Source: Cupriavidus pauculus (lineage in GTDB: Bacteria; Pseudomonadota; Gammaproteobacteria; Burkholderiales; Burkholderiaceae). From it: a DNA stretch of 64,000 nt. The notes under the pieces are model-generated. The model made no database searches, was not told the DNA's origin, and saw only the letters and a list, made by a program, of their open reading frames with translations. The stretch covers positions 1,116,001-1,180,000 of the forward strand of contig NZ_CP033970.1 of the NCBI RefSeq assembly GCF_003854935.1. The letters run 5' to 3'. Within the stretch, counting starts at the first letter, position 1, and every line of letters begins with the position of its first letter. Of the stretch, positions 38,507 through 53,267 are shown piece after piece. The position numbers and the translations under genes are program-made.

Positions 38507-39499
38507 CTAGAAGCTGGCCGCCAGCCCCAGCGAGATGCCCGACACGTTGTTGCCGAACACGTAGCGCACCACGGCGCGCACCCGGGTGACGAACACTTCA
38601 TGCGCGCTGGTGTCCAGTTCGAGCCCCATCCCCAGCGTGGTCAGGTAGTCGAAGCCCAGCGCGCCGGCCTGCGCCCCGAGGTAGTGGGAATGCGACAGTT
38701 CCAGCACATAGCGCACGGGCCGGTCCAACGCGTGCCAGCCGGTGGGAGCGCGCCAGCGCGCGTACAGGCTGGCGGTCTGGGCATTGGCCGACCCCTGCAC
38801 GGCCTCCGACGACCCGCCGAAGCTGCGCAGGTGGATATTGGTGTAGCGCAGTTCCAGGTCGATGTCGTGCTCGGGCCGGTAGTGTTCCCAGTCGATCATC
38901 ACCGATCCGCCCAGGCCGTAGGCGTTCAGCGATCCGCCGTCCAGGAAGTTGATGTCGCGGTCTGTCTTGCGGTCGACAAAGCCCTGCGCCAGCCGCAGGT
39001 CGCTGGACACATTGCCCAGCGACGCGTTGAAGATTGGCCGGAACACCAGTTCCTTGCTGGCCGTCAGCGGAAAGTCCCAGCCGATGCCGATGGTGCCGGC
39101 CACGGTGTTCCAGCGTGTGGGCAGCTCGCGCGATTCGGTGCCGTTCGATGCCACGAACGTGGGGTCGTAGCGGCTGTAGGCGATGGACCCCTCCATGTAC
39201 ACCGGCACCGACTTGCTGAGCGTGAACCCCCCGCCCAGCTGGGACATGACCATGCCTGGGTTGGCGGTCTGCGAGTCGGTGATCGACAGCGAACTGGACG
39301 CCAGGTCCGGCACGACGGAAAAGCTCATCAGCGTCAGCACCGCGTTGGCCTGGCGCTGCACGCCGGGGCCAAAGGCCACCCGCAGGTCCTGGCCGGGCTG
39401 GGCGTGCGCGGGCAAGCCGCCCAGCAGCAGCCAGGGCAGCAGTGCGGCCAGGCACCCCCGACGGACGACACCGGTTGCTGGTAACGGCAGGCGGCCCAT
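38507..39499 (-). CDS. Outer-membrane beta-barrel protein
   Basis: 330 residues. Signal peptide with GCLAALLPWLLLGGLPAHA before QPGQ, then alternating amphipathic strands and a C-terminal Phe (GLAASF), as in autotransporter-type or OmpW-like barrels. No passenger domain. Start chosen at MGRLPLP so that the signal peptide is at the N-terminus. A regulon motif lies 74 bp upstream, shared with the divergent DUF3300 gene. Confidence 0.75.
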   Translation of the reverse strand: MGRLPLPATGVVRRGCLAALLPWLLLGGLPAHAQPGQDLRVAFGPGVQRQANAVLTLMSFSVVPDLASSSLSITDSQTANPGMVMSQLGGGFTLSKSVPVYMEGSIAYSRYDPTFVASNGTESRELPTRWNTVAGTIGIGWDFPLTASKELVFRPIFNASLGNVSSDLRLAQGFVDRKTDRDINFLDGGSLNAYGLGGSVMIDWEHYRPEHDIDLELRYTNIHLRSFGGSSEAVQGSANAQTASLYARWRAPTGWHALDRPVRYVLELSHSHYLGAQAGALGFDYLTTLGMGLELDTSAHEVFVTRVRAVVRYVFGNNVSGISLGLAASF

Positions 39500-39572
39500 G
39501 CGGTCGGCCGGGGCGGCGCCCGGCGGGGTTCGGCGATGGGGGCCAGCGTAACCCGGCTGGCCGCGCCTGCGT

Positions 39573-39592
39573 ATTGGACCAAGGTTCCATTG
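39573..39592. promoter_or_regulatory. Shared regulon motif, site a
   Basis: ATTGGACCAAGGTTCCATTG, whose reverse complement reads GGAACCTTGGTCCAAT. It lies 74 bp from the start of the barrel gene and 80 bp from DUF3300. Near-palindromic, so it can face both divergent genes. See the sites at 44636, 45101 and 51738. Confidence 0.6.
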
Positions 39593-39671
39593 CCGCGCCG
39601 CGGCGCGCCATCTATATGTTGTGCTGAAAGCTGGAACGGGAGCAGGCGGCATCATTTGGGAGGGGGGTGCC

Positions 39672-41174
39672 ATGACGTTGGGCAGCGTGCGACGTACTGA
39701 GGATATGCGACGTATGCCACCCATGCGAGGCGGGCGTGGCATCGGCCGGTGGATGCTGGCGTGCCTGCTGGGGCTGGGCAGCGCCGTGGCGCCGGCTGCC
39801 CTGGCCCAATCGCCGCAAGCGGCGCAGTCGGCCCAGGCGCCCCAGTCGGCCCAGGCGCCGACCTTCAAGCCCGAAGAGCTGGAGGCGCTGGTGGCGCCCA
39901 TCGCGCTCTATCCCGATTCGGTGCTGTCCCAGGTGCTGATGGCGTCGACCTACCCGCTGGAAATCGTGCAGGCCGCCCGCTGGCAGAAGGCCAACGCGAG
40001 CCTCAAGGGCGACGCGGCGGTCAAGGCCGTGCAGGACCAGCCGTGGGATGTCAGCGTGAAGTCGCTGGTGGCGTTTCCGCAGGTGCTGGAGCCGCTGAAC
40101 GACAAGCTCGACTGGACGCAGAAGCTTGGCGACGCCTTCCTGGCGCAGGAAAAGGACGTGCTGGCGGCCGTCCAGCGGCTGCGCGCCAAGGCGCAGCAGT
40201 CGGGCAACCTCAAGTCGAACGAGCAGCAGAACGTGGTGGTGCAGCAGGCACCCCAGGGCGCGGCCACGCCGCAGACCATCGTCATCGAGCCCGCCAATCC
40301 GCAGGTCATCTACGTGCCGGCCTACAACCCGACCGTGGTCTACGGCAGCTGGGGGTACCCGAGCTACCCGCCGTACTACTGGCCGCCGTATCCGGCCTAC
40401 TACCCCGGCGCCGCGCTGATGACCGGGTTTGCCTGGGGCGTTGGGCTGGCCGCCGCCGGGGCCATCTTCGGCGACTGCAACTGGGGCGGCGGGGACGTGA
40501 ACATCGACGTGAACCGCGCCACCAACATCGACCGCAACTTCGACCGGACCAAGGTGGAGGGCGGCAACAAGTGGAAGCATGATTCCAGCCATCGCAAGGG
40601 CGTGGCCTACCGCGACAACGCCACGCGCGAGAAATTCGGCAACAACGTGGGCGGCGCGGATCGGCGCAACGACTTCCGGGGGCGCGAGGGGGCCGGTGAC
40701 CGGGGCGACCGGGCGGGCAATCGCGGGCAGGATCGCGCCGGCGACCGCATGGCGGACCGGGGCGGGGATCGGGCCGGCGACCGTGCCGGCGACCGGGCGG
40801 GCGACCGCGCCGGGGATCGCGCTGGGGGGGCCGGGGATCGCTCGGCAAATCGCGGGCAGGGGGCCGGAGGTGACCGGTTGTCCACGGCGGACCGGGGCGG
40901 CGGTGGCGGCGACCGAGGCGGCGGCTACGGCGGCGGCGGACGCGACAACGCATTCCAGGGCGTGGGCGGTGGTGGCGCGCAGCGCGATTTCGACCGCGGC
41001 AACGCCAGCGCCGGTGGGGGCTTTGGTGGCGGCAATACGGCGGCCAACCGGGGCGGTGGCGGCGGCGGCTTCAGCGGGGGCGGCGGAGGCCGGGGCGGTG
41101 GCGGCTTCAGCGGGGGCGGCGGCGGGCGTGGCGGTGGCTTTGGCGGCGGCGGTGGCCGCGGCGGCCGCCGGTGA
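39672..41174 (+). CDS. DUF3300 family protein with Gly-rich tail
   Basis: 500 residues. Signal peptide ends near AALAQ, so periplasmic or secreted. The DUF3300 core (LVAPIALYPDSVLSQVLMASTYPLEIV, then PQVIYVPAYNPTVVYG) covers about residues 60-290. A low-complexity tail of GDRA repeats and FSGGGGGRGGG repeats follows. The family is paired with DUF2950, as here (gap 35 bp); function unknown. GGAGGGGGG precedes the ATG at 39672. Confidence 0.85.
   Translation: MTLGSVRRTEDMRRMPPMRGGRGIGRWMLACLLGLGSAVAPAALAQSPQAAQSAQAPQSAQAPTFKPEELEALVAPIALYPDSVLSQVLMASTYPLEIVQAARWQKANASLKGDAAVKAVQDQPWDVSVKSLVAFPQVLEPLNDKLDWTQKLGDAFLAQEKDVLAAVQRLRAKAQQSGNLKSNEQQNVVVQQAPQGAATPQTIVIEPANPQVIYVPAYNPTVVYGSWGYPSYPPYYWPPYPAYYPGAALMTGFAWGVGLAAAGAIFGDCNWGGGDVNIDVNRATNIDRNFDRTKVEGGNKWKHDSSHRKGVAYRDNATREKFGNNVGGADRRNDFRGREGAGDRGDRAGNRGQDRAGDRMADRGGDRAGDRAGDRAGDRAGDRAGGAGDRSANRGQGAGGDRLSTADRGGGGGDRGGGYGGGGRDNAFQGVGGGGAQRDFDRGNASAGGGFGGGNTAANRGGGGGGFSGGGGGRGGGGFSGGGGGRGGGFGGGGGRGGRR
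40728..40845 (+). repeat. GDRA-coding tandem repeat
   Basis: About nine degenerate 12-bp units encoding GDRA inside the DUF3300 gene, near residues 353-391. A second set, two 36-bp copies encoding FSGGGGGRGGG, is at 41067-41138. Slippage-prone, so length may vary between strains. Confidence 0.75.
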
Positions 41175-41209
41175 CCGGGCATGGCGATGACGACCACAGG
41201 GTGGAACGC

Positions 41210-42175
41210 ATGCGGGCAATGACAGCAAACTCGCGGCTGCGCCTGGCGCGCGCGCTGGTCACGCTGGGGCTGGGGCTCGCGCTGGCGCTGCCGGCGCTGG
41301 CGCAGAAGGGCTTCGACACCCCGGAGGCCGCGATGAACGCCTTTGGCGACGCCGTGGCGACCAGCGACGATGCCGCGATGACGGCGCTGCTGGGCGCGTC
41401 GGCGCGGCGCATGATCCCGCCCGTGGGCGCGGACCTGCGCTACCGCTTCCTGTCGGCGTGGAGCCAGTCGCACAGCGTGGTGCGGGGCGAAGATGGCCGC
41501 GCGCGCATCGCCGTGGGCAACGACGGCTGGACGCTGCCCATTCCGCTGGTGTCGACCAACGGCCGCTGGCATTTCGACGCGCGGGCCGGCAGCGACGAGA
41601 TCCGGCTGCGGCGCATCGGCCGCAACGAGCTGTCGACCATCCAGACCATGCTGGCGATCTACGACGCCCAGCACGAGTACGCGCTGGGCCGGCACGACGG
41701 CGGCGGGCTGGTCGTCTACGCGCGCAAGCTCGTCAGTTCGCCGGGCAAGCAGGACGGGCTGTACTGGCCTACCCGGCCCGGCGAGCCCGAAAGCCCCCTG
41801 GGCCCCGCGTTCATCGACGCCGTGACCAGCCATCGCGGCGGGTCGGACGGCTACAACGGCTATCGCTACAAATTGCTGACCGGACAGGGACCAGCGGCGC
41901 CCGGCGGCCGGTACACGTACCTGGTCGACGGCAAGCTGTTCGGCGGGTTTGCGGTGCTGGCGTGGCCGGCCCGCTATGGCGACACGGGCATCAAGAGCTT
42001 CATGGTCAGCCACGACGGCCAGGTCTACGAACGCGACCTGGGCCGCGACACCCCGGCGCGCGCCGCCGCCATCGCCACGTTTGACCCCGGCAACGGGTGG
42101 AGCAAGGTGGCGCCCGAACTGCTGCAGCCGGTGCCGGCCATGCCGGCGGCGCAGCCCACCGCGGCCACGCGCTGA
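41210..42175 (+). CDS. DUF2950 family protein
   Basis: 321 residues. Signal peptide ends near ALAQK, then FDTPEAAMNAFGDAV and the conserved GGFAVLAWPARYGDTGIKSFMVSHDGQVYE (split here as family block). Exported, function unknown; always or mostly found next to DUF3300. A GTG at 41171 overlaps the previous stop and an ATG at 41219 is also possible; 41210 is preferred for its upstream GGTGGAA. Confidence 0.85.
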   Translation: MRAMTANSRLRLARALVTLGLGLALALPALAQKGFDTPEAAMNAFGDAVATSDDAAMTALLGASARRMIPPVGADLRYRFLSAWSQSHSVVRGEDGRARIAVGNDGWTLPIPLVSTNGRWHFDARAGSDEIRLRRIGRNELSTIQTMLAIYDAQHEYALGRHDGGGLVVYARKLVSSPGKQDGLYWPTRPGEPESPLGPAFIDAVTSHRGGSDGYNGYRYKLLTGQGPAAPGGRYTYLVDGKLFGGFAVLAWPARYGDTGIKSFMVSHDGQVYERDLGRDTPARAAAIATFDPGNGWSKVAPELLQPVPAMPAAQPTAATR

Positions 42176-42528
42176 GCCCGGCTTTTCTCCCGCCAATTTC
42201 CGCCTGGATTAACGGCCGCTTAATTAAGCGGCCGATGAAAATCGCCGCGCCTTAAGAAAGATTTTATTCACGCTCGAAAGCTCTTTACACGGAATGGCAA
42301 GTAGAGATTGCAATCGGCAGGGCGCCGACCTAACGTGATATGGCACAAACAAACGAGTCAGAAAAAGCAACAGGAATCGATCGTATTTGACGATCGCAAT
42401 TCGGCGTGGGGTAGGTCAACACAGGGACGTTTCATCGATCTGGCGGCGCCACGGCCTGGCCGTGCGCCGGTGGCAGTCCAATCATTCATGCCCCCTGACT
42501 GGCTCCCGCTCTCAACAGGGAGATCATC
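42176..42528. other. AT-richer intergenic region before YSC84 operon
   Basis: 353 bp, clearly AT-richer than its surroundings. It holds a 22-bp perfect palindrome (42213-42234), an inverted repeat of CGATCG (42378-42383 and 42391-42396), a TTGACG that might be a -35 at 42387 and a partial regulon half-site GTCCAAT at 42476-42482. No ORF supported. Confidence 0.55.
42213..42234. repeat. 22-bp perfect palindrome
   Basis: Two arms CGGCCGCTTAA and TTAAGCGGCCG with no spacer, centred on TTAATTAA. In RNA it would form a 9-bp stem with an AATT loop, but no T-run follows on either strand, so a protein site is at least as likely. Confidence 0.7.
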
Positions 42529-43095
42529 ATGAATCGACGGCTGTTCATCAGTCTGCCCGCCTTGAGCCTGGCGCCCGTGCTGGGCGCCTGCACCACCAAT
42601 ACGTCCGGCAGCGATGCGGCGGCCAAACGCCGGGAGATCGATGCCGGCGTGGATGGCACCATGAGCAAGCTGTTTGCGTCGGCCAGCTCCGCGCAGGCGC
42701 TGGCGCAGCAGGCCAAGGGCATCCTGGTGTTCCCGAAGATCCTGGCCGGCGGCTTCATCGTCGGCGCCGAGTACGGCGAGGGGGCGCTGCGCGTGAACAA
42801 TGCGTCGGTGGGCTACTACCGCACCACCAGCGCGCAGTTCGGCCTGCTGGCGGGCGCCCAGTCCAAGGCGCTGATCCTGATGTTCATGACCGACGACGCG
42901 CTGCGGGCGTTCCAGGCCAGCAAGGGGTGGACGGCCGGCGTGGACGGCTCCATCGCGCTGGCGACGATCGGCGCGAACGGGCAGATCGACACCAACACGG
43001 CGCGCGCCCCGATTGTCGGCTTCATGCTGACCAATGCCGGGCTGATGGCCAACCTCTCGCTAGAAGGCACCAAGATCAGCAAGCTCGATATCTGA
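42529..43095 (+). CDS. YSC84/SYLF-domain lipoprotein
   Basis: 188 residues. Lipoprotein signal with lipobox LGAC (Cys near residue 20), then the SYLF lipid-binding domain (AKGILVFPKILAGGFIVGAEYGEGAL, QFGLLAGAQSKALILMFMTDDAL). Such proteins bind phosphoinositide-like or other lipids and are common in envelope stress sets. First gene of the unit with the kinase (12-bp gap). Confidence 0.88.
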   Translation: MNRRLFISLPALSLAPVLGACTTNTSGSDAAAKRREIDAGVDGTMSKLFASASSAQALAQQAKGILVFPKILAGGFIVGAEYGEGALRVNNASVGYYRTTSAQFGLLAGAQSKALILMFMTDDALRAFQASKGWTAGVDGSIALATIGANGQIDTNTARAPIVGFMLTNAGLMANLSLEGTKISKLDI

Positions 43096-43107
43096 GCGGG
43101 TGCGGCC

Positions 43108-43992
43108 ATGAGATGGATTCCACTGCTGCTGGCGGGCGCGTCCATGGCCCTGGCGTTCGTGGCGCTGCCCCGCGCGGCAGCCCCGCGCCGCCCGGCCGAC
43201 CGCCTGCGCATGGTGGAAGGCAGCCCGCTCTGCGACACCGCCAGCCGGCCGGGGATGGTCGAGCTGGCGGGATCGCTCGCGCATGAGCTGAACCAGCCGC
43301 TGACGGCCATCACCAGCAATGCGCAGGCCGCGCGCGAGTACCTGATGTCGGGCGCGGCGGCGCAGGACGAAATCCGCGAGATCCTGGACGACATCGTCAC
43401 CGACGCCTCGCGCGCCAGCGACATCGTCAAGGGCGTGCGCGCGCTGATCCGTGGCGAGGCGCCCCGGCTGGTGGCGTTTCCGATTGCCGACGTGGTCGAC
43501 CGCGCGCTGGAGCTGGTGCGCGACGAAGCGCGGGCGCGTGGCGTGACGGTGCAGGGCGCGGCAGACCCGGCGCTGCCCCGTGCGATGGGCGACCCGATGG
43601 AAATCCAGCTCGTGCTGCTGAACCTGCTGGTCAACGCGCTGGACGCCGTGCAGGCCGCCCCGTCCGGCGTCGCACGGCAAGTCAACGTGTCGGCCGCCGC
43701 GCGCGACGGCCTGCTGCTGATAGCCGTGCGCGACAACGGCTGCGGCGTCAGCGAGGGCGACCTCGACAAGATCTTCCGGCCGTTCTTCTCGTCCAAGCCG
43801 CGCGGCATGGGGCTGGGCCTGTCGTTCAGCCGCGCGCTGATGGAGCGCAACGGCGGGCGCCTGCGCGCCATCCGCAACCGCGACATCGGCATGACCTTCG
43901 AATGCCTGCTGCGCACCGAGGCAGCCACCGCCCACCACGCCGCGCCCGCGACGATGGCATCCCGCCTGCGCACCGCCACCTCCAGGAGATAG
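43108..43992 (+). CDS. Sensor histidine kinase, membrane-tethered
   Basis: 294 residues. One N-terminal hydrophobic segment (residues 4-20), then HisKA with His59 in SLAHELNQPLTAI, and HATPase with NLLVNALDA, DNGCGVSEGD, FFSSK and GMGLGLSFSRAL. No periplasmic sensor domain is visible, so the signal may come from a partner or from inside. 12 bp after the SYLF gene and 7 bp before the FixJ-type regulator, which is its likely partner. Confidence 0.9.
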   Translation: MRWIPLLLAGASMALAFVALPRAAAPRRPADRLRMVEGSPLCDTASRPGMVELAGSLAHELNQPLTAITSNAQAAREYLMSGAAAQDEIREILDDIVTDASRASDIVKGVRALIRGEAPRLVAFPIADVVDRALELVRDEARARGVTVQGAADPALPRAMGDPMEIQLVLLNLLVNALDAVQAAPSGVARQVNVSAAARDGLLLIAVRDNGCGVSEGDLDKIFRPFFSSKPRGMGLGLSFSRALMERNGGRLRAIRNRDIGMTFECLLRTEAATAHHAAPATMASRLRTATSRR

Positions 43993-43999
43993 CACCGCC

Positions 44000-44623
44000 A
44001 TGCTTGCCACCAGGACCACCATCCATATCGTCGACGACGACGACAGCGTGCGCCGCGCGCTGGGCCGGGTGCTTGCGGCCCACGGCTATCTCACGGCGGG
44101 GTTTGCCTCGGCCAGCCAGTTCCTGGAAGAGGCGGACCTGGACAGCACGCCGGGCTGCGCGCTGCTGGACCTGCAGTTGCCCGACATCAGCGGCATCGAC
44201 CTGCAGCAGGCGCTGTGCAGCCGCATCCCGGTCATCATCCTGACCGGCCACGCCGACGTGGCCAGCGCGGTGCTGACGATGCAGGCCGGCGCCATCGACT
44301 TTCTGCAGAAGCCGGTGTCCGACGTGCAACTGCTGGCGTCGGTGGCGCGCGGCTGCGAATGCGCGGCGCGCCAGTTCACGCAGGCGCGCGAGTTGCGCGA
44401 GCTGCGCAAGAAGGTGGATCGCCTGACGCCGCGCGAGCGCGAGGTGCTGGCGTGGATCGTCACCGGGTTCCGCAACAAGCAGGTGGCCAACCGGCTGGGC
44501 ACGGTGGAGAAGACCATCAAGGTGCATCGCGCCCATGTGATGCAGAAGCTGGAGGTGGATTCGCTGCCCGCGCTGGTCCGCATTGCCGACCGCATGGGCA
44601 TGGTGGCCGACACGGCCGCCTGA
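44000..44623 (+). CDS. FixJ-type response regulator
   Basis: 207 residues. Receiver with acidic VDDDD, phospho-acceptor Asp57 in LLDLQLPDISG and Lys104 in LQKPV; C-terminal LuxR-type helix-turn-helix with LTPREREVLAWIVTG and KTIKVHRAHVMQKL. Probably activates genes after phosphorylation by the kinase 7 bp upstream. It is my leading candidate for the factor that reads the shared motif at 39573, 44636, 45101 and 51738; that link is inference. Confidence 0.92.
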   Translation: MLATRTTIHIVDDDDSVRRALGRVLAAHGYLTAGFASASQFLEEADLDSTPGCALLDLQLPDISGIDLQQALCSRIPVIILTGHADVASAVLTMQAGAIDFLQKPVSDVQLLASVARGCECAARQFTQARELRELRKKVDRLTPREREVLAWIVTGFRNKQVANRLGTVEKTIKVHRAHVMQKLEVDSLPALVRIADRMGMVADTAA

Positions 44624-44635
44624 GCGCGCCGCGGC

Positions 44636-44651
44636 TGGACCATGGGCCAAT
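44636..44651 (+). promoter_or_regulatory. Shared regulon motif, site d
   Basis: TGGACCATGGGCCAAT, 14 of 16 bases equal to site c. 68 bp upstream of the stand-alone receiver gene. Confidence 0.55.
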
Positions 44652-44718
44652 ATCGCGCGCCGCGCGGGTCTCGTAGCCTAGGCAGATACATGCTTACCAT
44701 CGGCTGCGCCGCTCGCAC

Positions 44719-45090
44719 ATGGGTCCTACCGGAAAATTCGTGGCGGTTGTCGACGACGATGCGTCCGTGGCGCGGTCCACGGCGCGGCTGTTGCACGCGG
44801 CCGGCATCGCGGCGGACACCTTTGCCAGCGGGGACGCCTTCCTGGCCCGGATGCACGGCCCGGCCGCGTACCGCCCGAGCTGCGTGATTCTGGACGTCTG
44901 CATGCCGGGCGTGGACGGGCTGGAAGTGCAGCAGCAGCTGGCCGGCCTGGGCCTGCCGCTGATCTTCATCACCGCCCACGAACTGCCCGAGGTGCGCGAC
45001 CGCGCGCTGGCGGCCGGCGCCGTGGGCTACCTGCGCAAGCCTTTCGACGCCAACCAGCTGATCCGGCTGGTGCGCAGCGTGATGCTGTAG
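44719..45090 (+). CDS. Stand-alone receiver-domain protein
   Basis: 123 residues, one receiver domain and nothing else. VDDDAS, phospho-acceptor Asp59 in ILDVCMPGVDG, Thr in ITAHE and Lys107 in LRKPF. Single receivers act as phosphate sinks, phosphorelay steps or CheY-like effectors. Own motif (site d) upstream suggests feedback within the same regulon. Confidence 0.88.
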   Translation: MGPTGKFVAVVDDDASVARSTARLLHAAGIAADTFASGDAFLARMHGPAAYRPSCVILDVCMPGVDGLEVQQQLAGLGLPLIFITAHELPEVRDRALAAGAVGYLRKPFDANQLIRLVRSVML

Positions 45091-45100
45091 CCCCATGCCT

Positions 45101-45120
45101 TTGGTCCTTGGTCCAATTGC
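45101..45120 (+). promoter_or_regulatory. Shared regulon motif, site b
   Basis: TTGGTCCTTGGTCCAATTGC, 68-88 bp upstream of the RRM-like gene that leads the RND pump operon. Two overlapping TTGGTCC units. Confidence 0.6.
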
Positions 45121-45187
45121 CAAGCAGCCGGCGGCGGGCGCACTCTTGTCAGGACGCGGCCCGCAGGCCAACCAGGGGGACTGGCAA

Positions 45188-45442
45188 ATGGCGATACTGA
45201 TGCTTTCCAACCTCCATCCCGACACCACCGAGGAACATGTGCGCGAATTCCTCGAACGCTATGGCTTTCCGCCGTTCGACGCGATCGAGCGGCAAGAGGG
45301 CGACGGCACGCGGCCGGGCATGACGCTGACGTTCAACACGGTGGACATGGCGGCCCTGCAGCACTTCGTGCCGCGCATCCACGGCGTGTTCTGGAACGGC
45401 CACAAGCTCAACGCGCTGCTGCTGCGGGAACGCTTCAACTAG
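45188..45442 (+). CDS. Small RRM-like RNA-binding protein
   Basis: 84 residues. ILMLSNLHPDTTEEHVREFLERYG matches the beta1-alpha1 part of an RRM (RNP2-like), and the rest (MTLTFNTVDMAALQHFV, GVFWNGHKLNALLL) follows the RRM order of beta strands; the aromatic RNP1 residues are weak. Single-RRM proteins occur in bacteria. AGGGGGA precedes the ATG at 45188. Leads the efflux operon with 31 bp to the adaptor gene. Confidence 0.7.
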   Translation: MAILMLSNLHPDTTEEHVREFLERYGFPPFDAIERQEGDGTRPGMTLTFNTVDMAALQHFVPRIHGVFWNGHKLNALLLRERFN

Positions 45443-45473
45443 TCGCGCGGGCCGCGCGCGGGGAGGGACGACG

Positions 45474-46718
45474 ATGGCAAGCGGTCTGCAATCCATGCGC
45501 GGCCTGGGGGTCTGGCTGGCGGCGGCCGGACTGGCCTTGGCCGCCTGCAACCGCCACGAGGCCAAGGCCCCGGCCGCGCCGCCGGTGACCGAGGTGGGCG
45601 TCGTCAAGGTGGCGCTGCGCGACGTGCCGCTCACGTACGAGTACGTCGGCGAGACGCAAAGCTCGCAGCAGGTGGAAATCCGCGCGCGCGTCAACGGCTT
45701 CCTGGAACAGCGGCTGTACACCGAGGGCGCGCTGGTCAAGGCCGGGCAGGTCATGTTCCGGATGGACCAGAAGCCGTTCAAGGCGGCGCTGGAGGCCGCG
45801 CAGGCCGAACTGGCCCAGCAGCAGGCGCGGCTTACCACCGCGCGCGCCAACCTGGCCAGGGTGCGTCCGCTGGCGGCGCGCAACGCGTTGAGCCAGAAGG
45901 ACCTGGACGACGCCACCGGCCAGGAGCAGGCGGCGGCCGCCGCTGTCGAGGCCGCCAAGGCCAATGTCACCAATGCCAAGCTGAACCTGGGCTACACCAC
46001 GATCATGTCGCCGGTGGACGGCCTGTCGAGCTACGCCAAGAAGCAGGTGGGCTCGTACATCGACGCCTCGAACAGCCTGCTGACCTACGTGGCCAAGCTC
46101 GATCCGATCTGGATCAACTTCAGCCTGTCGGAAAACGAGGTGCTGGGCTTCCAGTCGCAGTCGGCGGCCGGCACGCTGAAGCTGCCCGACCGGGGCGCGA
46201 TGGAGGTGGAGATCGTGCTGGCCGACGGCAGCGTCTATCCCAGGCGCGGGCATATCGCGTTTGCCGATGCGTCGTTCAATTCCGAGACCGGCACCTACCT
46301 GATCCGCGCCGAGATGCCGAACGGCCAGGGCATGCTGCGGCCCGGACAGTTCGTGCGCGTGCGGGTGATGGGCGCGCTGCGCACGCGGGCCATCACCGTG
46401 CCGCAGGAGGCCGTGGTGCAGGGCCAGCGCGGGCAGTCGGTATGGCTGGTGGGCAAGGACAACAAGGCCGAGTCGCGCGTGGTGGACGTGGGCGAGTGGT
46501 CGCACGGCAACTGGGTGATCCGCTCTGGCCTGCGCGAAGGCGACACGGTCATCGTCGACGGATCGGTGCGGCTGGCGCCCGGCGCGCCGGTCAAGCCCGT
46601 GGCGGCGGCTCCGCAGGCCACCGACGGGGCGCGGCCGCCCGCCGCGCCGCCCGGTCCGCCCGCCGCCGCGCCAACGGCCCCGGCCGGGGCCCAGCCGGCG
46701 AAGGGTGCCGCGTCATGA
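45474..46718 (+). CDS. RND efflux periplasmic adaptor (lipoprotein)
   Basis: 414 residues of the AcrA/MexA family. Lipobox LAAC (Cys near residue 25), a lipoyl-hairpin core (VEIRARVNGFLEQRLYTEGALVKAGQVMF), beta-barrel and membrane-proximal domains, and an Ala/Pro tail that reaches the RND gene. It couples the pump to an outer-membrane channel. ATGA overlap with the pump gene. Confidence 0.92.
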   Translation: MASGLQSMRGLGVWLAAAGLALAACNRHEAKAPAAPPVTEVGVVKVALRDVPLTYEYVGETQSSQQVEIRARVNGFLEQRLYTEGALVKAGQVMFRMDQKPFKAALEAAQAELAQQQARLTTARANLARVRPLAARNALSQKDLDDATGQEQAAAAAVEAAKANVTNAKLNLGYTTIMSPVDGLSSYAKKQVGSYIDASNSLLTYVAKLDPIWINFSLSENEVLGFQSQSAAGTLKLPDRGAMEVEIVLADGSVYPRRGHIAFADASFNSETGTYLIRAEMPNGQGMLRPGQFVRVRVMGALRTRAITVPQEAVVQGQRGQSVWLVGKDNKAESRVVDVGEWSHGNWVIRSGLREGDTVIVDGSVRLAPGAPVKPVAAAPQATDGARPPAAPPGPPAAAPTAPAGAQPAKGAAS

Positions 46719-49700
46719 AGCTGTCCCACTTCTTCATCGACCGGCCGATCTTTGCGTCGGTGCTGTCCATCATCATCGTGGTGGGCGGCATGGTGGCGCT
46801 GTTCAACCTGCCGATTGCCCAGTTTCCCGAGATCACGCCGCCCAGCATCACGGTGTCGACCACGTACCCCGGCGCCAGCTCGGAGGTGGTGGCCCAGAAC
46901 GTGGCCGCGCCGATCGAGCAGCAGGTGAACGGCGCGGACAACATGCTGTACATGTCGTCCACCAGCTCGTCCACGGGCAACATGACGCTGACCACGTTCT
47001 TCGAGATCGGCACCGACCCGTCGCTGGCGCAGGTGGACGTGCAGAACCGCGTGAACCTGGCGCTGCCGACGCTGCCGGACGCCGTGACGCGCCAGGGCGT
47101 GACCGTGGAAAAGCGCTCGCAGGCGTTCATGATGGTGATCGCGGTGTATTCCCCGGACAACAGCTACCCGCAAACCTTCGTCGACAACTACACGAGCATC
47201 TACATCCTGGACGCGCTCAAGCGCATTCCGGGCGCCAACCAGTCGTCGATCTTCGGCACGCCGGACTACGCCATGCGGATCTGGCTCAAGCCGGACCGCA
47301 TGGCCCAGCTCGGCATCACGGCCGAGGACGTCAAGAACGCCGTGGCCAACCAGAACGAGCAGTTCTCGGCGGGGCGGATCGGCCAGTCGCCCACGTCGGA
47401 GCCGGTCAAGCAGACGTTCCCGGTGACCACCAAGGGGCGCATGACCGAGCCGCAGGAGTTCGAGAACATCATCCTGCGCGCGGCCTCCGGCGACGCGGCG
47501 CTGGTGCGGCTCAAGGACATCGGCCGGGCCGAGCTGGGGTCGAAGGACTACTCGCTGCGCAGCCGCTACCAGGGCAAGACGGCCACGCTGCTGGCCGTGT
47601 ACCAGCAGCCCGGCGCCAACGCGCTGGCCGTGGCCGGCGAGGTGCGCAAGACGCTGGAGGCGGCCAAGAAGACGTTCCCGCCGGGGCTGGAATACGAGAT
47701 CGCGCTGGACACCACCGAGTTCGTGCACGAGTCGATCAACGAGGTGGTGCATACGCTGCGCGACGCGGTGATTCTGGTGATCCTGGTCGTCTACCTGTTC
47801 CTGCAGAGCTTCCGCGCCACGCTGGTGCCGATCCTGGCCGTGCCGGTGTCGATCATCGGCACGTTCACGGCCATGGCCGCGTTCGGCTTCTCGGTGAACA
47901 TGCTTACGCTGTTCGGGATGGTGCTGGCCATCGGCATCGTGGTGGACGACGCCATCGTGGTGATCGAGAACGTCGAGCGCAACATGATGGAGTTCCACAT
48001 GCCGCCCAAGGAGGCCGCCAAGGCCGCCATGGACGAGGTGGGCGGGCCGGTGATCGCCATCGTGCTGGTGCTGCTGGCCGTGTTCATCCCGGTGGCGTTC
48101 CTGTCCGGCATCACGGGCCAGCTCTACAAGCAGTTCGCCATCACGCTGGCGGTGTCGGTGCTGCTGTCCGGGGTGGTGGCGCTGACGCTGTCGCCCGCGC
48201 TGGCGGCCATCCTGCTCAAGCCCGGCACGCACGAGAAGAACCGCTTCTTCCGCTGGTTCAACCGCAGCTTCGACCGCGTGGTGGAAGGCTACGGCTCGGC
48301 GGTGCAGACCGTGATCCGGCGCACGGTGATCTCGCTGGCCATCGTGGTGGCGCTGGTCGTGGCGGCCGTGCTGATGTTCGTGCGCATTCCGTCGTCGTTC
48401 CTGCCGGTGGAGGACCAGGGCTACCTGCTGGGCGCCGTGATCCTGCCCGACGCGGCCAGCCTGGACCGCACCGGCGCCCTGTCCCGGCGCGCGGCGGAGT
48501 GGTTCGAGAAGCAGCCGGCGGTGAAATCGGTGGCCGTGCCGGACGGCTACAGCCTGATCGATTCGCAGAACAAGTCCAACGCCGGCACGCTGTTCATCAC
48601 GCTGAAGGGCTTTCACGAGCGCGGCAAGGGCGAGAGCGCGGCGGACCTGATCGCGCAGGCCACGCAGGAGTTCTCCACCTACCGCGATGGGCTGGTGATA
48701 CCGGTCAACCCGCCGTCGATCCCGGGGCTGGGCACCACGGGCGGCTTCGAATTCTGGCTGCAGAGCACCGGCGACGGCACCTACCAGCAGCTGGAGGAAC
48801 GCACGCGCGCGTTCATTGCCAAGGCGCGGCAGCGGCCGGAGCTGCGCGGCGTGAGCACGACGATCAACACGCGGTCGCGCCAGCTGCTGGTGGACCTGGA
48901 CCGCGAGCGCGCCGAGACGCAGGGCGTGCCCGTGGAGCAGGTGTACTCGGCGCTGCAGACGATGTTCGGCTCGCTGTACGTGAGCCAGTTTCCGAAGAAC
49001 AGCCGCCTGTTCCAGGTGATCCTGCAGGCCGAGCCTGAGTACCGGTCGCGGCCCGAGGACCTGGACAAGGTCTACGTGCGCAACGCCCGCAACGAGATGG
49101 TGCCGATCAAGGCCGTCACGACCGTGCGCTGGGTGGCCGGCGCGGACCTGGTCACCCGCTTCAACAACTTCCCGGCGGCCAAGATCACCGGCGATGCCGC
49201 GCCCGGCTACAGCTCGGGCCAGGCGCTGCAGGCCATGGAGGAGATTGCCGCCGAGGTGCTGGGCGAGGGCTACAGCTACGCGTGGAGCGGGCAGGCGTAC
49301 GAGGAAAAGAAGGCTGGCTCCACGGCCGCCATGGTGTTCGCGTTCGCGCTGCTGATGGTGTTCCTGATCCTGGCGGCGCAGTACGAGAAGTGGTCGCTGC
49401 CGCTGGGCGTGCTGCTGGCCGTGCCGTTCGCGCTGTTCGGCGCGCTGGTGGGCATCCTGTTGCGCGGCATGGAGAACGACGTGTACTTCCAGATCGGCCT
49501 GACGGTGCTGATCGCGCTGGCGGCCAAGAACGCGATCCTGATCTTCGAGTTCGCGGTGGAGATGCGCGTCAAGGAAGGGCTGAGCGCGTACGACGCGGCG
49601 GTCAAGGCGTCCAAGCTGCGGCTGCGGCCGATCATCATGACGTCGCTGGCGTTCATCCTGGGCTGCATTCCGCTGGCCATCGCCAGCGGCGCGTCGGCCG

Positions 49701-49876
49701 CCAGCCGCCAGTCGCTGGGTACCGGTGTGATCGGCGGCATGCTCGGCGCCACGATCATCGCCATCTTCTTCATCCCGATGTTCTTCTGGGGGCTGGAGCG
49801 CGAGAGCAAGAAGAAGCTGGCGCGGCAGGCCGCCCGCGACGCCGGCCCGGCCGAGCCCACCGGAGGCACCCTGTGA
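46715..49876 (+). CDS. RND efflux pump, HAE1 family
   Basis: 1053 residues, the usual AcrB/MexB length. N-terminal FFIDRPIFASVLSI, 12 membrane segments in two halves, proton-relay Asp pair in the TM4 stretch GIVVDDAIVVIENVER, and a C-terminal half with AAKNAILIFEFAVE. Proton-driven drug or solvent efflux. No outer-membrane channel follows directly; one is encoded at 53270. Confidence 0.93.
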   Translation: MKLSHFFIDRPIFASVLSIIIVVGGMVALFNLPIAQFPEITPPSITVSTTYPGASSEVVAQNVAAPIEQQVNGADNMLYMSSTSSSTGNMTLTTFFEIGTDPSLAQVDVQNRVNLALPTLPDAVTRQGVTVEKRSQAFMMVIAVYSPDNSYPQTFVDNYTSIYILDALKRIPGANQSSIFGTPDYAMRIWLKPDRMAQLGITAEDVKNAVANQNEQFSAGRIGQSPTSEPVKQTFPVTTKGRMTEPQEFENIILRAASGDAALVRLKDIGRAELGSKDYSLRSRYQGKTATLLAVYQQPGANALAVAGEVRKTLEAAKKTFPPGLEYEIALDTTEFVHESINEVVHTLRDAVILVILVVYLFLQSFRATLVPILAVPVSIIGTFTAMAAFGFSVNMLTLFGMVLAIGIVVDDAIVVIENVERNMMEFHMPPKEAAKAAMDEVGGPVIAIVLVLLAVFIPVAFLSGITGQLYKQFAITLAVSVLLSGVVALTLSPALAAILLKPGTHEKNRFFRWFNRSFDRVVEGYGSAVQTVIRRTVISLAIVVALVVAAVLMFVRIPSSFLPVEDQGYLLGAVILPDAASLDRTGALSRRAAEWFEKQPAVKSVAVPDGYSLIDSQNKSNAGTLFITLKGFHERGKGESAADLIAQATQEFSTYRDGLVIPVNPPSIPGLGTTGGFEFWLQSTGDGTYQQLEERTRAFIAKARQRPELRGVSTTINTRSRQLLVDLDRERAETQGVPVEQVYSALQTMFGSLYVSQFPKNSRLFQVILQAEPEYRSRPEDLDKVYVRNARNEMVPIKAVTTVRWVAGADLVTRFNNFPAAKITGDAAPGYSSGQALQAMEEIAAEVLGEGYSYAWSGQAYEEKKAGSTAAMVFAFALLMVFLILAAQYEKWSLPLGVLLAVPFALFGALVGILLRGMENDVYFQIGLTVLIALAAKNAILIFEFAVEMRVKEGLSAYDAAVKASKLRLRPIIMTSLAFILGCIPLAIASGASAASRQSLGTGVIGGMLGATIIAIFFIPMFFWGLERESKKKLARQAARDAGPAEPTGGTL

Positions 49877-49920
49877 ACCGGCCGGCGCCGAGCGCTGCCG
49901 GCCCCGAGAAGGAGCGAACC

Positions 49921-50400
49921 ATGTCCAGATCGAAGATTTCCGTGGCGCTGCTGTGCGCGGGGCTGGGCGCCGCGCTGAGCGTGCCGGCGCTGGCGCAGAA
50001 GCCCATCGCCTATCCGGCCAAGGGCCAGAGCCAGGCGCAGCAGCAACAGGACGACGGCTACTGCTATTCGTGGGCCAAGTCCAACACCGGCATCGACCCG
50101 GCCGCGGTGGCCGCCGCGCCGCCGCCCCAGCAGGGTGGCCCGGCCGTCGGCGGCGGCGAGCGCGTGGGCGGTGCCGCGCGCGGGGCGCTGGGCGGCGCGG
50201 TCATCGGCGGCATTGCCGGCGACGCGGGCAAGGGCGCCGCGGCCGGCGCGGCGGTCGGCACGATGGCGGGCGGCCATCGCGCGCGCCAGAACCAGCGCAA
50301 TGCGCAGGCCAACGCCCAGCAACAGCAGTCCGGCGCCATGAGCACCTACTACCGCGCCTATTCCGCCTGCATGCAGGGGCGCGGCTACACCATCCAGTGA
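49921..50400 (+). CDS. Exported glycine-zipper protein
   Basis: 159 residues. Signal peptide ending near PALAQ, a Gln-rich stretch, then the glycine-zipper GGALGGAVIGGIAGDAGKGAAAGAAVG, which can insert in or span the outer membrane. C-terminal YSACMQGRGYTI motif is common to this family. AAGGAGC precedes the ATG. Confidence 0.85.
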   Translation: MSRSKISVALLCAGLGAALSVPALAQKPIAYPAKGQSQAQQQQDDGYCYSWAKSNTGIDPAAVAAAPPPQQGGPAVGGGERVGGAARGALGGAVIGGIAGDAGKGAAAGAAVGTMAGGHRARQNQRNAQANAQQQQSGAMSTYYRAYSACMQGRGYTIQ

Positions 50401-50417
50401 CTGGCACCGGCATCCGC

Positions 50418-50819
50418 ATGGAGACAGCCTTGAAACCGATTCCGCGACGCCAGGCGCTGGCCCTGGCCGTACTGCTTGCCGCGGCCTGGCCGGCGCGGGC
50501 CTATTACGACCACTTCCTGAGCGGCACGATTATCGGCACGCTGAACAAGGACCAGACCGCCGAGCTGACCACGGCGTTCGGCAAGACGCTGTCCGAGTCC
50601 GACGATGGCAAGAGCGTGCCGTTCCACCTGGCGCCGAACGCCAAGGGCAAGCCCACCGATGGCACGTTCACGCCGCTCACGACTCGCACAGAGAACGGCC
50701 AGCGCTGCCGCAAGGTGCGCAGCGAGCTGCGCCAGCCGGGCCGCCAGCCCGAACGCTGGACGGGCTGGTACTGCCAGCAGCCGGACGGCGAGTGGAAGAA
50801 GACGCTGCTGAAGGACTAG
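50418..50819 (+). CDS. Exported 17-kDa-antigen-like protein
   Basis: 133 residues. Signal peptide ends at ARA, then YYDHFLSG and a domain resembling the RT0821/Lpp0805 surface-antigen family (TFTPLTTRTENGQRCRKVRSE, WYCQQPDGEWKKT). A TTG at 50430 has the better GGAG spacing, so the start may be four codons later. 17 bp after the glycine-zipper gene; last gene of the RRM-RND unit. Converges on ppk2 (28-bp gap). Confidence 0.7.
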   Translation: METALKPIPRRQALALAVLLAAAWPARAYYDHFLSGTIIGTLNKDQTAELTTAFGKTLSESDDGKSVPFHLAPNAKGKPTDGTFTPLTTRTENGQRCRKVRSELRQPGRQPERWTGWYCQQPDGEWKKTLLKD

Positions 50820-50847
50820 GGGCCGGCGTCGGCCGTCAGCCCGGCCG

Positions 50848-51666
50848 CTAGAAGCGCTCGGGGATGTAGCGGTAGGGGTAGTCGGGCGCCCGGTAGCCGC
50901 CGGCCTTCTGCCGCGCTGGCAGCGTGATCTTCTTGCGCGCGATGCGCTCGTAGGGCACGGTGTCCAGCAGGTGGCGGATGATGTTGAGCCGGGCGCGGCG
51001 CTTGTTGTCCGAGCGCACCACGTGCCAGGGCGCGAATTCGGTGTCGGACGCCTCGAACATCGCGTCGCGGGCGCGCGAGTAGTCGTACCAGCGGCTGTAC
51101 GACTTCAGGTCCATGTCGGTCAGCTTCCAGGTCTTGCGGCCGTCCTTGATGCGCTGCTCCAGCCGGCGCGTCTGTTCCTCGGGGCTGACTTCCAGCCAGT
51201 ATTTCAGCAGCCGGACGTTGGAGCCGACGATGGCGCGCTCGATCAGCGGCACCGCGCGCAGGAAGATGTCCACCTGGCTGTCGTCGGCAAAGCCCATCAC
51301 CCGTTCCACGCCGGCGCGGTTGTACCAGCTCCGGTCGAAGATCACCACCTCGCCGGCGGCCGGCAGGTAGGGGATGTAGCGCTGCATGTACATCTGGCTC
51401 TTTTCGCGCTCGGTGGGCGCGGGCAGCGCCACCACGCGGAACACGCGCGGGCTGACGCGCTCGGTCAGCGCCTTGATGGTGCCGCCCTTGCCAGCGCCGT
51501 CGCGCCCCTCGAAGACGATGCAGATCTTGGCGCCGGTGGCCTTGACCCAGTCCTGCAGGTGCACCAGTTCCACGTGCAGGTCGGCCAGCGCCGCCTCGTA
51601 TTCCTTGCGGCCGAGCGCGTTGCCGTCGCCGGCAGCGTCCGCGGCGCCCCCCTTCCGTTTTGCCAT
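50848..51666 (-). CDS. ppk2: Polyphosphate kinase 2
   Basis: 272 residues. Moves phosphate between polyphosphate and nucleotides. Walker A FEGRDGAGKGG (54-62), Walker B with Asp111-Arg112 in IFDRSWYNRAGVE, lid region SQMYMQRYIPYL. Class I length. Start at 51666 after GGGGGAT; longer upstream ATGs lie in the promoter. Motif sites c lie about 72-112 bp upstream. Confidence 0.92.
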   Translation of the reverse strand: MAKRKGGAADAAGDGNALGRKEYEAALADLHVELVHLQDWVKATGAKICIVFEGRDGAGKGGTIKALTERVSPRVFRVVALPAPTEREKSQMYMQRYIPYLPAAGEVVIFDRSWYNRAGVERVMGFADDSQVDIFLRAVPLIERAIVGSNVRLLKYWLEVSPEEQTRRLEQRIKDGRKTWKLTDMDLKSYSRWYDYSRARDAMFEASDTEFAPWHVVRSDNKRRARLNIIRHLLDTVPYERIARKKITLPARQKAGGYRAPDYPYRYIPERF

Positions 51667-51737
51667 GGCTGATCCCCCGCGTGCGATGCACGGACTTTGC
51701 AATGCCGTACCAATCTGGACACTGCGCCGCGCTTTGG

Positions 51738-51778
51738 CAATGGACCTTGGTCCAATGCTTGGCCCAAGGACCAATTGC
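51738..51778. promoter_or_regulatory. Shared regulon motif, double site c
   Basis: Two copies in opposite orientation. CAATGGACCTTGGTCCAATG at 51738-51757 faces the 51838 operon; the reverse complement of 51757-51778 reads GCAATTGGTCCTTGGGCC and faces ppk2. This is the strongest instance in the window. Confidence 0.65.
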
Positions 51779-51837
51779 ATTGCCCCGGCGATTGGCGGAC
51801 GCTTGCCGTCAGCGCCTTATTTTCCAGGGTGGCCGGC

Positions 51838-52110
51838 ATGCGCAAGAGCGGATTCCTGTTGATGGTGGGAGCGATGTGGCTGGCCGTGATCGGCATCTTC
51901 TGGAGCGATCCGAGCGGCCAGACGCCCGACAAGCTGAACCTGTTCCGGTTTGCGCTGCACGGCCTGGAGGTGCAGTTGTTCCGCACCGGCGGCGACCCGC
52001 CGCGCTACCTGGTGAACGTGCTGGCCCGCGACTGGCTGCTGGGCTGCCTGCTGCTGTTTGCCGCCGGGGCGGCGCTGGTGTTGGTTGCGCGCCGCCGCCA
52101 GCAGGTGTGA
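51838..52110 (+). CDS. Small two-helix membrane protein
   Basis: 90 residues with two hydrophobic segments (FLLMVGAMWLAVIGIFW and WLLGCLLLFAAGAALVLV) and a basic C-terminus (RRRQQV). Unknown function. AGGGTGG precedes the ATG; 38 bp before the AI-2E gene and so the first gene of the operon. Confidence 0.7.
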   Translation: MRKSGFLLMVGAMWLAVIGIFWSDPSGQTPDKLNLFRFALHGLEVQLFRTGGDPPRYLVNVLARDWLLGCLLLFAAGAALVLVARRRQQV

Positions 52111-52148
52111 AGCCCGGCCGCATGCCGGGCGGACAACGGAGTCATACG

Positions 52149-53267
52149 ATGCTGCAAGCGCCGTATTCCACCGCGACCGTGTCGCGCACGCTGATCGATT
52201 CGCTGATCCGGTTCGGCCTCGTGGCGCTGCTGGCCACGTTCTGCTTCCAGATCTTCCGGCCGTTCATGAACCTGCTGGTCTGGTCCGTGATCCTGGCCAT
52301 CACGCTCTATCCGCTGCAGGTGCGGCTGCGCGGCCGGGTGTTTGCCGGCGATGGCCGCACCGCCACGCTGATCATCGTGCTGGTCATCGCCATCGTGCTG
52401 GTGCCCACCTACCTGCTGGGTACGGCGCTGATCGAGTCGATGGAACAGGCGATGGCGATTGCCCGGCGCGGCGAATTCCATATCCCCCCGCCGCCGGAGG
52501 CGCTGGCCGGCTGGCCGCTGGTGGGGCGCCGGCTGCACGACGCCTGGGCCATGGCCGCCACCGACGCGGCCAGCCTGATGGAAAGGCTCGGCCCGCAGAT
52601 CAAGGCGGCCAGCCTGACGGTGCTGGGCGCCATCGGCGGCGTGGGCGTGGGGCTGCTGGTCTTTGTGGGCGCGCTGATCATCGCCGGCATCATCATGGCC
52701 TACGGCGAGCAGGGCACGCGCAGCGCCGTGCGCATCGCGACGCGCATCACGGGGCCAGAGCGGGGCCCGCGCCTCACGGCGCTCTGCACGGCCACGATCC
52801 GGGCCGTGGCGCAGGGCGTGGTGGGCATCGCGTTTATCCAGATGCTGCTGATTGGCGTGGCGTTCGTGCTCAAGGGCGTGCCCGGCGCGGGGCTGCTGGC
52901 GCTGGCGGTGCTGCTGCTGGGCATCATGCAGTTGCCGGCCACGCTGATCACGATTCCGGTGATCCTGCTGGTTTTTGCGTCCGAAGGCGCCAGCGCCACC
53001 AATATCGTCTTTGCCATCTACGTGTTCATCGCCGGGCTGGCCGACAACGTGCTCAAGCCGCTGATGCTGGGCCGGGGCGTGGATGTGCCGATGCCGGTGA
53101 TCCTGGTGGGCGCGCTGGGCGGCATGGTCACGGGCGGCGTGATCGGGCTGTTCATCGGGCCCATCGTGCTGGCGGTGGGCTACCAGTTGTTCTGGCAGTG
53201 GGTGGACGAGCCGCTGCCGCGCATCGAATTGGAGCCGCGCAGCAACGCCGACATCACCGGAGGCTAG
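52149..53267 (+). CDS. AI-2E family membrane protein
   Basis: 372 residues, about eight membrane segments. Pattern of the AI-2E/YdiK/PerM family: FRPFMNLLVWSVILAITLYPL near the start, then QGVVGIAFIQMLLIGVAFVLKG, ADNVLKPLMLGRGVDVPMPVIL and IGLFIGPIVLAVGYQLFWQW (family blocks). Substrates vary; a quorum role is not implied. Two bases separate its stop from the OMF gene. Confidence 0.85.
   Translation: MLQAPYSTATVSRTLIDSLIRFGLVALLATFCFQIFRPFMNLLVWSVILAITLYPLQVRLRGRVFAGDGRTATLIIVLVIAIVLVPTYLLGTALIESMEQAMAIARRGEFHIPPPPEALAGWPLVGRRLHDAWAMAATDAASLMERLGPQIKAASLTVLGAIGGVGVGLLVFVGALIIAGIIMAYGEQGTRSAVRIATRITGPERGPRLTALCTATIRAVAQGVVGIAFIQMLLIGVAFVLKGVPGAGLLALAVLLLGIMQLPATLITIPVILLVFASEGASATNIVFAIYVFIAGLADNVLKPLMLGRGVDVPMPVILVGALGGMVTGGVIGLFIGPIVLAVGYQLFWQWVDEPLPRIELEPRSNADITGG

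Follow-up and report, generated by a model that had tools for sequence, protein, structure and literature searches.

What controls the envelope, efflux and polyphosphate genes that lie beside a two-component pair in Cupriavidus pauculus, and what is the function of a palindromic motif that recurs between them? The locus was studied in a 64-kb window (the whole stretch of DNA that was analysed; contig NZ_CP033970.1, positions 1,116,001 to 1,180,000), in which five copies of the motif fall around genes for a histidine kinase (HK), a FixJ/StyR-type response regulator (RR) and a lone receiver-domain protein. An earlier note on this DNA had proposed that the FixJ-type regulator encoded at 44000 controls the whole set, including the lone receiver gene, and sequence comparison supports this proposal. 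With a probability of roughly 0.83, the five sites are operators of the RR encoded at 44000-44623, which would activate the locus, its own lone receiver gene and distant operons. The sites, their conservation, their co-occurrence with the RR, the further sites at distant operons and, at some promoters, the spacing to a -10-like element are read directly from the DNA, and the recognition helix persists in RRs of as little as 46% identity.

A palindrome at five intergenic sites

The core motif is an 18-bp palindrome, ATTGGNCCWWGGNCCAAT. The dyad ATTGGNCCNNGGNCCAAT occurs with at most two mismatches at exactly five positions in the 64 kb, the next best position having four mismatches, and the 15-mer GGWCCWTGGKCCAAT is present at all five copies with 0 or 1 mismatch on either strand. 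When up to three mismatches were allowed, the 15-mer gave 14 window matches against 5.3 expected, a number reached in none of 100 shuffles. The close variants that had been claimed in four intergenic regions were thus all found where they had been placed. A two-mismatch scan of TTGGNCCNNGGNCCAA was uninformative (118 matches vs 189 in the control).

Each copy is palindromic in itself. Region c, which had been described as double and opposed, does hold two copies, but these are two neighbouring dyads 19 bp apart. The distance from site to start codon, given earlier as 68-95 bp, is 62-81 bases (81 from a to DUF3300, 73 from a to the barrel gene, 67 for d, 70 for b, 62 for c2 and 72 for c1), values that depend on the start codons chosen in this analysis. 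Among the home-locus sites, the half-site GGNCCAAT is nearly invariant and the other half is variable. At b, c2 and d this half points toward the gene that follows, as had been noted for the single-facing copies; it points toward the barrel gene at a and away from ppk2 at c1.

A matrix was built from 56 home-locus sites (17 distinct, with no distant sites included), and the five window sites score 22.8-32.2 against it. The single further window position above 10 is a weak dyad-like site at 23159-23176 (score 14.1), outside the cluster. Very probably, the motif is the docking site of one signal-responsive regulator.

Motif and response regulator across genomes

The RR consists of an N-terminal receiver and a C-terminal GerE/LuxR-type helix-turn-helix, as in NarL/FixJ-type response regulators, and its best structure matches are StyR (1yio, E 6.5e-40) and FixJ (5xso, E 1.3e-34). 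It is the sole DNA-binding protein matched by Pfam or NCBIfam among the scanned genes (38598 to 51666). The HK gene adjoins it, ending 7 bp ahead of the RR start; in this HK the domain search matched no sensor domain, and no PAS domain either.

Its closest relatives among the named genomes are from Cupriavidus, plus one labelled Ralstonia. All 13 orthologous Cupriavidus loci (L033-L045) carry the motif, its 16-bp core having at most two mismatches, at no fewer than two home positions, namely, within each stretch, the RR/receiver gap, the region before the RRM/RND unit, the gap between ppk2 and the AI-2E operon, and the barrel/DUF3300 gap; individual sites are poorer or absent in some of them. 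Site a is kept in those orthologous loci whose stretch reaches so far, and site d holds the same position in the Cupriavidus loci and behind some distant RRs. Among the less closely related loci (L039-L045), conservation is better in the sites than in their flanks, and locus L034 lacks the RND genes here yet retains sites b, c and d. The ortholog rows for the small open reading frame (ORF)/AI-2E query are a rough guide, as the query frame contained stops. Five of these loci (L033 and L035-L038) have an extra, half-conserved dyad closer to the barrel gene, followed by TAnnnT at 22-23 bp; this dyad is absent from the window.

The arrangement is also found with diverged RRs. In genome G074, an RR of 46% identity has behind it, in this order, a perfect 16-bp core, a receiver gene, a second dyad, and genes for YSC84, an efflux membrane-fusion protein (MFP) and an RND permease. 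Directly after the RR, a dyad is present in G074 and G018 and a mismatched one in G061 and G001, the RRs being of 46-64% identity. The RR contig of G001 has dyads before and after the RR and before a phosphotransacetylase/acetate kinase/RRM-like operon, and on a second contig of this genome, which carries genes for HK, receiver, pump, PPK2 and DUF3300, dyads stand at three places. Several dyads surround the RRs of G081 and G024. In L094, a locus of a distant betaproteobacterial metagenome-assembled genome (MAG; G086), perfect 18-bp dyads lie before the receiver, beside an RR of 48% identity and before another gene. Two Lysobacter loci have the core with one or two mismatches between RR and receiver, in genomes that show little motif excess. 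PAS domains were matched in the HKs of two diverged loci, those of G074 and G063.

The same association appeared in genome-wide counts. The exact sequence TTGGNCCWWGGNCCAA occurs in 16 of 36 genus genomes (the own genome included) and in none of 24 other genomes of the order, and its reversed control gave one match in all 60. By regulator, the exact site is present in 15 of the 16 genus genomes with an RR of at least 54% identity and in 1 of the 20 others (G024, RR 47%). In a set of 60 genus genomes, 20 were counted as RR-positive (at least 54% identity), four as intermediate (G024, G063, G074 and G081; best RR 46-48%) and 36 as RR-negative, the best RR matches of the last group being more distant paralogs. 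With up to one mismatch, the RR-positive genomes gave 103 matches vs 18 for the reversed control, each with at least two, and the RR-negative genomes gave 22 vs 73, with two or more in five genomes.

The recognition helix is conserved along with the motif, and both are retained by RRs of 46-50% identity in other loci and in another betaproteobacterium. The motif-linked RRs have in common, with some variation, the signature EKT[IV]K[VAI]HRA. Among 80 RR loci of the named collection, a site scoring at least 19 was present in 16 of 18 loci with the signature, of which 13 had supplied the matrix (three of the five independent signature loci hold a site), vs 3 of 62 without it; in three of these 62 loci (L105, L110 and L111) the alignment stops short of the helix. 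Different palindromes were seen beside two other RRs, ATGGCACATGTTCCAT about 28-44 bp after the RR match in L050 (Bradyrhizobium), with a receiver downstream, and ATTGACATGGGTCAAT about 12-28 bp after the match in L067 (a Caulobacteraceae MAG); perhaps these reflect the same arrangement with another operator, or chance.

Another DNA-binding protein encoded elsewhere, for instance a CRP/FNR-type activator with dyads near -41.5, might bind the dyads while the RR travels with the locus. Given the relatedness of the RR-positive genomes, the same presence and absence would result from any clade-specific regulator, and in the window no dyad lies directly ahead of the HK-RR genes. We nevertheless regard this as improbable, because the motif is found near RRs of 46-48% identity in different loci (G074, G081, G024 and G063) and likewise in a further betaproteobacterium (L094, L289), its place in some cases being between RR and receiver, and because the helix is conserved together with the motif. 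In G001, moreover, the RR is on one contig and the dyads beside HK, receiver and pump are on another.

Promoter position and predicted targets outside the window

Hexamers resembling a -10 element lie 22 bp after site a in both directions and 22 bp after site d (Table 1). TATATG or TATAAG occupies the DUF3300-side position in 9 of 11 aligned loci, and TAnnnT was found exactly 22 bp after the dyad in 13/13 aligned loci at site d and in 5 of the 6 loci used at site a toward the barrel gene. For the gene-proximal site of a distant aspartate operon the distance is 22 bp in 8 of 10 promoters and 21 bp in two, and two further promoter families have TAnnnT at 23-24 bp. The second of two spacing tests, which scored TAnnnT and used the aspartate site nearest to the gene, gave p 2e-4, with criteria that were picked after the data had been seen and a site rule by which two of the 12 aspartate promoters (L169 and L172) and one of the nine nap promoters dropped out. 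At fresh loci, outside both spacing tests, TAnnnT stood at 22 bp in 14 of 60 directions (30 dyads) and at any other offset in at most three; this comparison was partly blind, as the fit of three G086 promoters had been seen beforehand, G018 and G001 contain site-d orthologs, and homologous sites are non-independent. A sigma-54 promoter was considered and dropped on inspection of the sequence, as its GG-GC spacing does not fit.

From this spacing the dyad centre would fall near -43, overlapping the -35 region, like an activator site. A dyad spanning about -52 to -35 could also block RNA polymerase, so instead of being a class-II-like activator the RR might mainly repress, or set a basal level, and at b, c2, c1 and nap the -10 spacing was not observed. 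At class II promoters, activators that take over the -35 contact show a fixed distance to the -10 element. Since TAnnnT stands 22 bp away at several promoters and again at fresh loci, activation by the RR is favoured, and repression seems rather unlikely.

Distant sites were sought by pattern searches and in selected promoter stretches. The 6.18-Mb own genome contains seven exact 15-mers GGNCCWWGGNCCAAT, four of them in this locus, and 28 matches vs 4 in the control with up to one mismatch on both strands. An operon for aspartate 4-decarboxylase and an aspartate-alanine antiporter (type A) has a site in 12 of 13 RR-positive copies, with scores of 14.2-26.6; the background maximum of 14.1 was taken over 400-bp segments of the window (95 in all), which are shorter than the promoter stretches scanned (450 and 750 bp). 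The type-A promoters of RR-negative G070 and intermediate G081 have no site, and none of the 31 type-B paralogs examined, 13 of them in RR-positive genomes, exceeds 6.6. These figures cover 46 of 52 listed copies (15 type A, 31 type B); L242 was fetched and gave no tblastn match, and five others were left out. The own genome has a second aspartate decarboxylase paralog without a dyad (C2:1538095-1539699), which serves as a within-genome control. The nap nitrate reductase operon has a site in 9 of 13 RR-positive genomes (scores of at least 16.8), and among RR-negative genomes none of 18 nap promoters exceeds 7.9 (31 of 36 listed copies were examined; L240 and L241 were fetched and gave no match, and three others were left out). 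Elsewhere, sites were found near a glutamate decarboxylase gene (G013) and before a second RRM-like gene (G027). The predicted set is larger than the 12-kb regulon proposed before and takes in the aspartate decarboxylase/antiporter and nap operons at other places in the genome.

Every copy forms a near-perfect inverted repeat between genes, which would also suit a dispersed repeat or an RNA hairpin. Against this, the copies vary inside one genome while each is conserved across species. Of the seven own-genome sites above 20 outside the window, among the pattern matches and promoters examined, six are intergenic, and the window sites keep their short distance ahead of start codons. At several promoters the dyad lies upstream of the -10-like hexamer, so it would not be transcribed from it. 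We consider an origin as repeat or hairpin very improbable.

Several results weigh against RR-operated sites. The difference between RR-positive and RR-negative genomes (Mann-Whitney p 5e-10) is overstated, as the RR-positive genomes are related and not independent. The four intermediate genomes have only 18 matches vs 10 in the control genome-wide, and RR-negative G023 has five near-matches vs 4. Locus L046 has the RR but no good site, L059 has only a weak one, and near-match totals are barely above control in the genomes of L051 (27 vs 20), L059 (33 vs 26) and L094 (30 vs 28). As to geometry, TAnnnT at offset 22 was not seen in the aligned loci of b, c2, c1 and nap, and the first spacing test, by TATAAT match count at the best-scoring aspartate site, gave p 0.07. 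Among the distant targets, three of the 12 aspartate scores (14.2-14.6) are borderline against the background maximum, the type-A promoter of RR-positive G002 has no site, and neither do 4 of the 13 RR-positive nap promoters. One strong own-genome site (L245) lies inside a gene, which we take to be phage-like, and another (L244, C2:2782240, score 27.2) lies between convergent genes with no obvious target, near what is presumably a catalase-peroxidase-like gene. As a whole, the motif was neither as common in genes as in promoters nor unconserved in relatives, the two outcomes that the earlier note had named as refuting.

Proposed circuit and its relation to known systems

The features of the locus are collected in Table 1. 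The 84-aa RRM-like gene occurs in three neighbourhoods (the window; L154:2551-2805; L275:2993-3247), each time with a dyad ahead of it or in its operon.

Table 1. Genes, dyads and -10-like hexamers of the locus (window coordinates)
Feature	Position	Strand	Evidence or remark
Barrel protein gene, predicted outer-membrane	38598..39499	-	weak autotransporter-barrel match, E 0.0039, below Pfam cut-off
-10-like TACGCT	39545..39550	-	22 bp after site a toward barrel gene
Site a	39573..39590	.	ATTGGACCAAGGTTCCAT; between divergent barrel and DUF3300 genes; matrix score 28.0
-10-like TATATG	39613..39618	+	22 bp after site a toward DUF3300; sequence
DUF3300 gene	39672..41174	+	E 4.6e-95
DUF2950 gene	41171..42175	+	E 4.4e-110
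YSC84-domain gene	42529..43095	+	E 3.3e-13
HK, 294 aa	43108..43992	+	HisKA + HATPase
FixJ/StyR-type RR, proposed dyad binder	44000..44623	+	Response_reg E 4e-22, GerE E 1.2e-19
Site d	44634..44651	+	GCTGGACCATGGGCCAAT; upstream of lone receiver gene
-10-like TAGCCT	44674..44679	+	22 bp after site d
Lone receiver-domain protein	44719..45090	+	E 1.1e-23
Site b	45100..45117	+	TTTGGTCCTTGGTCCAAT; upstream of RRM-like/RND unit
RRM-like protein, 84 aa	45188..45442	+	weak RRM_1 match, E 0.018, below cut-off
Efflux MFP	45474..46718	+	domain match
RND efflux permease	46715..49876	+	RND_permease_1, 1364 bits
Glycine-zipper protein, start approximate	49942..50397	+	domain match
PPK2 polyphosphate kinase	50848..51666	-	TIGR03707, 344 bits
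Site c1	51739..51756	.	AATGGACCTTGGTCCAAT
Site c2	51758..51775	+	CTTGGCCCAAGGACCAAT
Small ORF, first gene downstream of c2	51838..52110	+	sequence
AI-2E-family transporter, start approximate, heads efflux operon	52149..53267	+	AI-2E_transport E 2.2e-23, frame 51660-53267

We infer binding, phosphorylation, activation, feedback and a physiological role from these sequences as follows. Most likely, the phosphorylated RR binds each 18-bp dyad as a dimer, and a dyad so occupied, about 43 bp upstream of the transcription start, would activate the gene ahead of it. Within the window, this would apply to the barrel gene and the DUF3300-DUF2950 genes divergent from it, the gene for the lone receiver, the RRM-like/RND efflux unit, ppk2 and the AI-2E/efflux operon; further away, the predicted targets include at least the aspartate 4-decarboxylase/aspartate-alanine antiporter operon and the nap operon. 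The HK-RR pair may receive feedback via read-through from site a. That the lone receiver has its own operator suggests a second feedback, in which it could drain phosphate from the kinase. The nature of the targets (nap, aspartate decarboxylation, PPK2, and phosphotransacetylase/acetate kinase in G001) suggests that the set may serve under energy or oxygen limitation.

No description of this motif or regulon was found in the open-licence literature. According to a previous study, DUF3300 and DUF2950 are always side by side in root nodule bacteria and were induced in two RNA-seq studies, and their function is not known (PMC4653623). A regulator, an operator and a target list are now proposed for a recurring cluster of such poorly understood genes (DUF3300, DUF2950, YSC84 and RRM-like). 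With an operator so clearly defined and occurring alongside its regulator, it should be possible to predict the regulon in other genomes, and the natural series of RRs and operators could serve to study the evolution of FixJ-type specificity and of lone-receiver feedback.

Among known systems, StyR is the closest solved relative of the window RR and shares its receiver and helix-turn-helix architecture. The StyR/TodT/TmoT/TutB box is a 16-bp dyad, ATAAACN4GTTTAT, and the recognition residues of StyR are Lys175-Val176 and His179 (PMC5874301). The recognition helix of the window RR keeps the Lys and Val, whereas His179 is replaced by Ala in the alignment, and the half-site is TTGGNCC instead of ATAAAC, the five sites being variants of TTGGNCCWWGGNCCAA. 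The predicted targets are envelope, efflux and energy genes instead of those for styrene/toluene (aromatic) catabolism, and the HK encoded in the window is a short protein in which no PAS domain was matched.

FixJ of rhizobia binds imperfect palindromes of 16-18 bp (TAAGTAATTTCCCTTA) and has few targets, mainly fixK (PMC4999443). The window RR is of FixJ type and its palindromic site is of similar size, whereas the site sequence differs, and the PAS sensor of FixLJ has no match in the window kinase.

For the actinobacterial DevR (DosR)/OsdR system, eight OsdR sites are reported to control 20 of 22 neighbouring genes, the sites being 16-nt palindromes with the consensus AGGGCCGATCGGCCCT (PMC5069765). 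This consensus differs from ours, and the RR sequence is distant (DevR 3c3w, E 1.8e-14). No universal-stress-protein gene was recognised among the named targets, and no search aimed at such genes was made. In both systems, the RRs being of the same broad type, palindromes are clustered around the RR gene, here five in 12 kb, and lie before distant stress genes. Similar site clusters are present in G081 and G024. Tentatively, the locus might belong to a so far undescribed betaproteobacterial stress or energy-limitation regulon, with traces in gammaproteobacteria. In it, a kinase linked to a PAS domain or to the membrane would act together with a StyR-like RR that has an 18-bp operator of its own and with a lone receiver that is self-regulated and serves as phosphate-sink brake. 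The three would switch on DUF3300/DUF2950/YSC84 envelope proteins, RND efflux, the use of polyphosphate through PPK2, proton-motive aspartate decarboxylation and nitrate reduction, as a possible proteobacterial counterpart to the DevR/OsdR dormancy programme.

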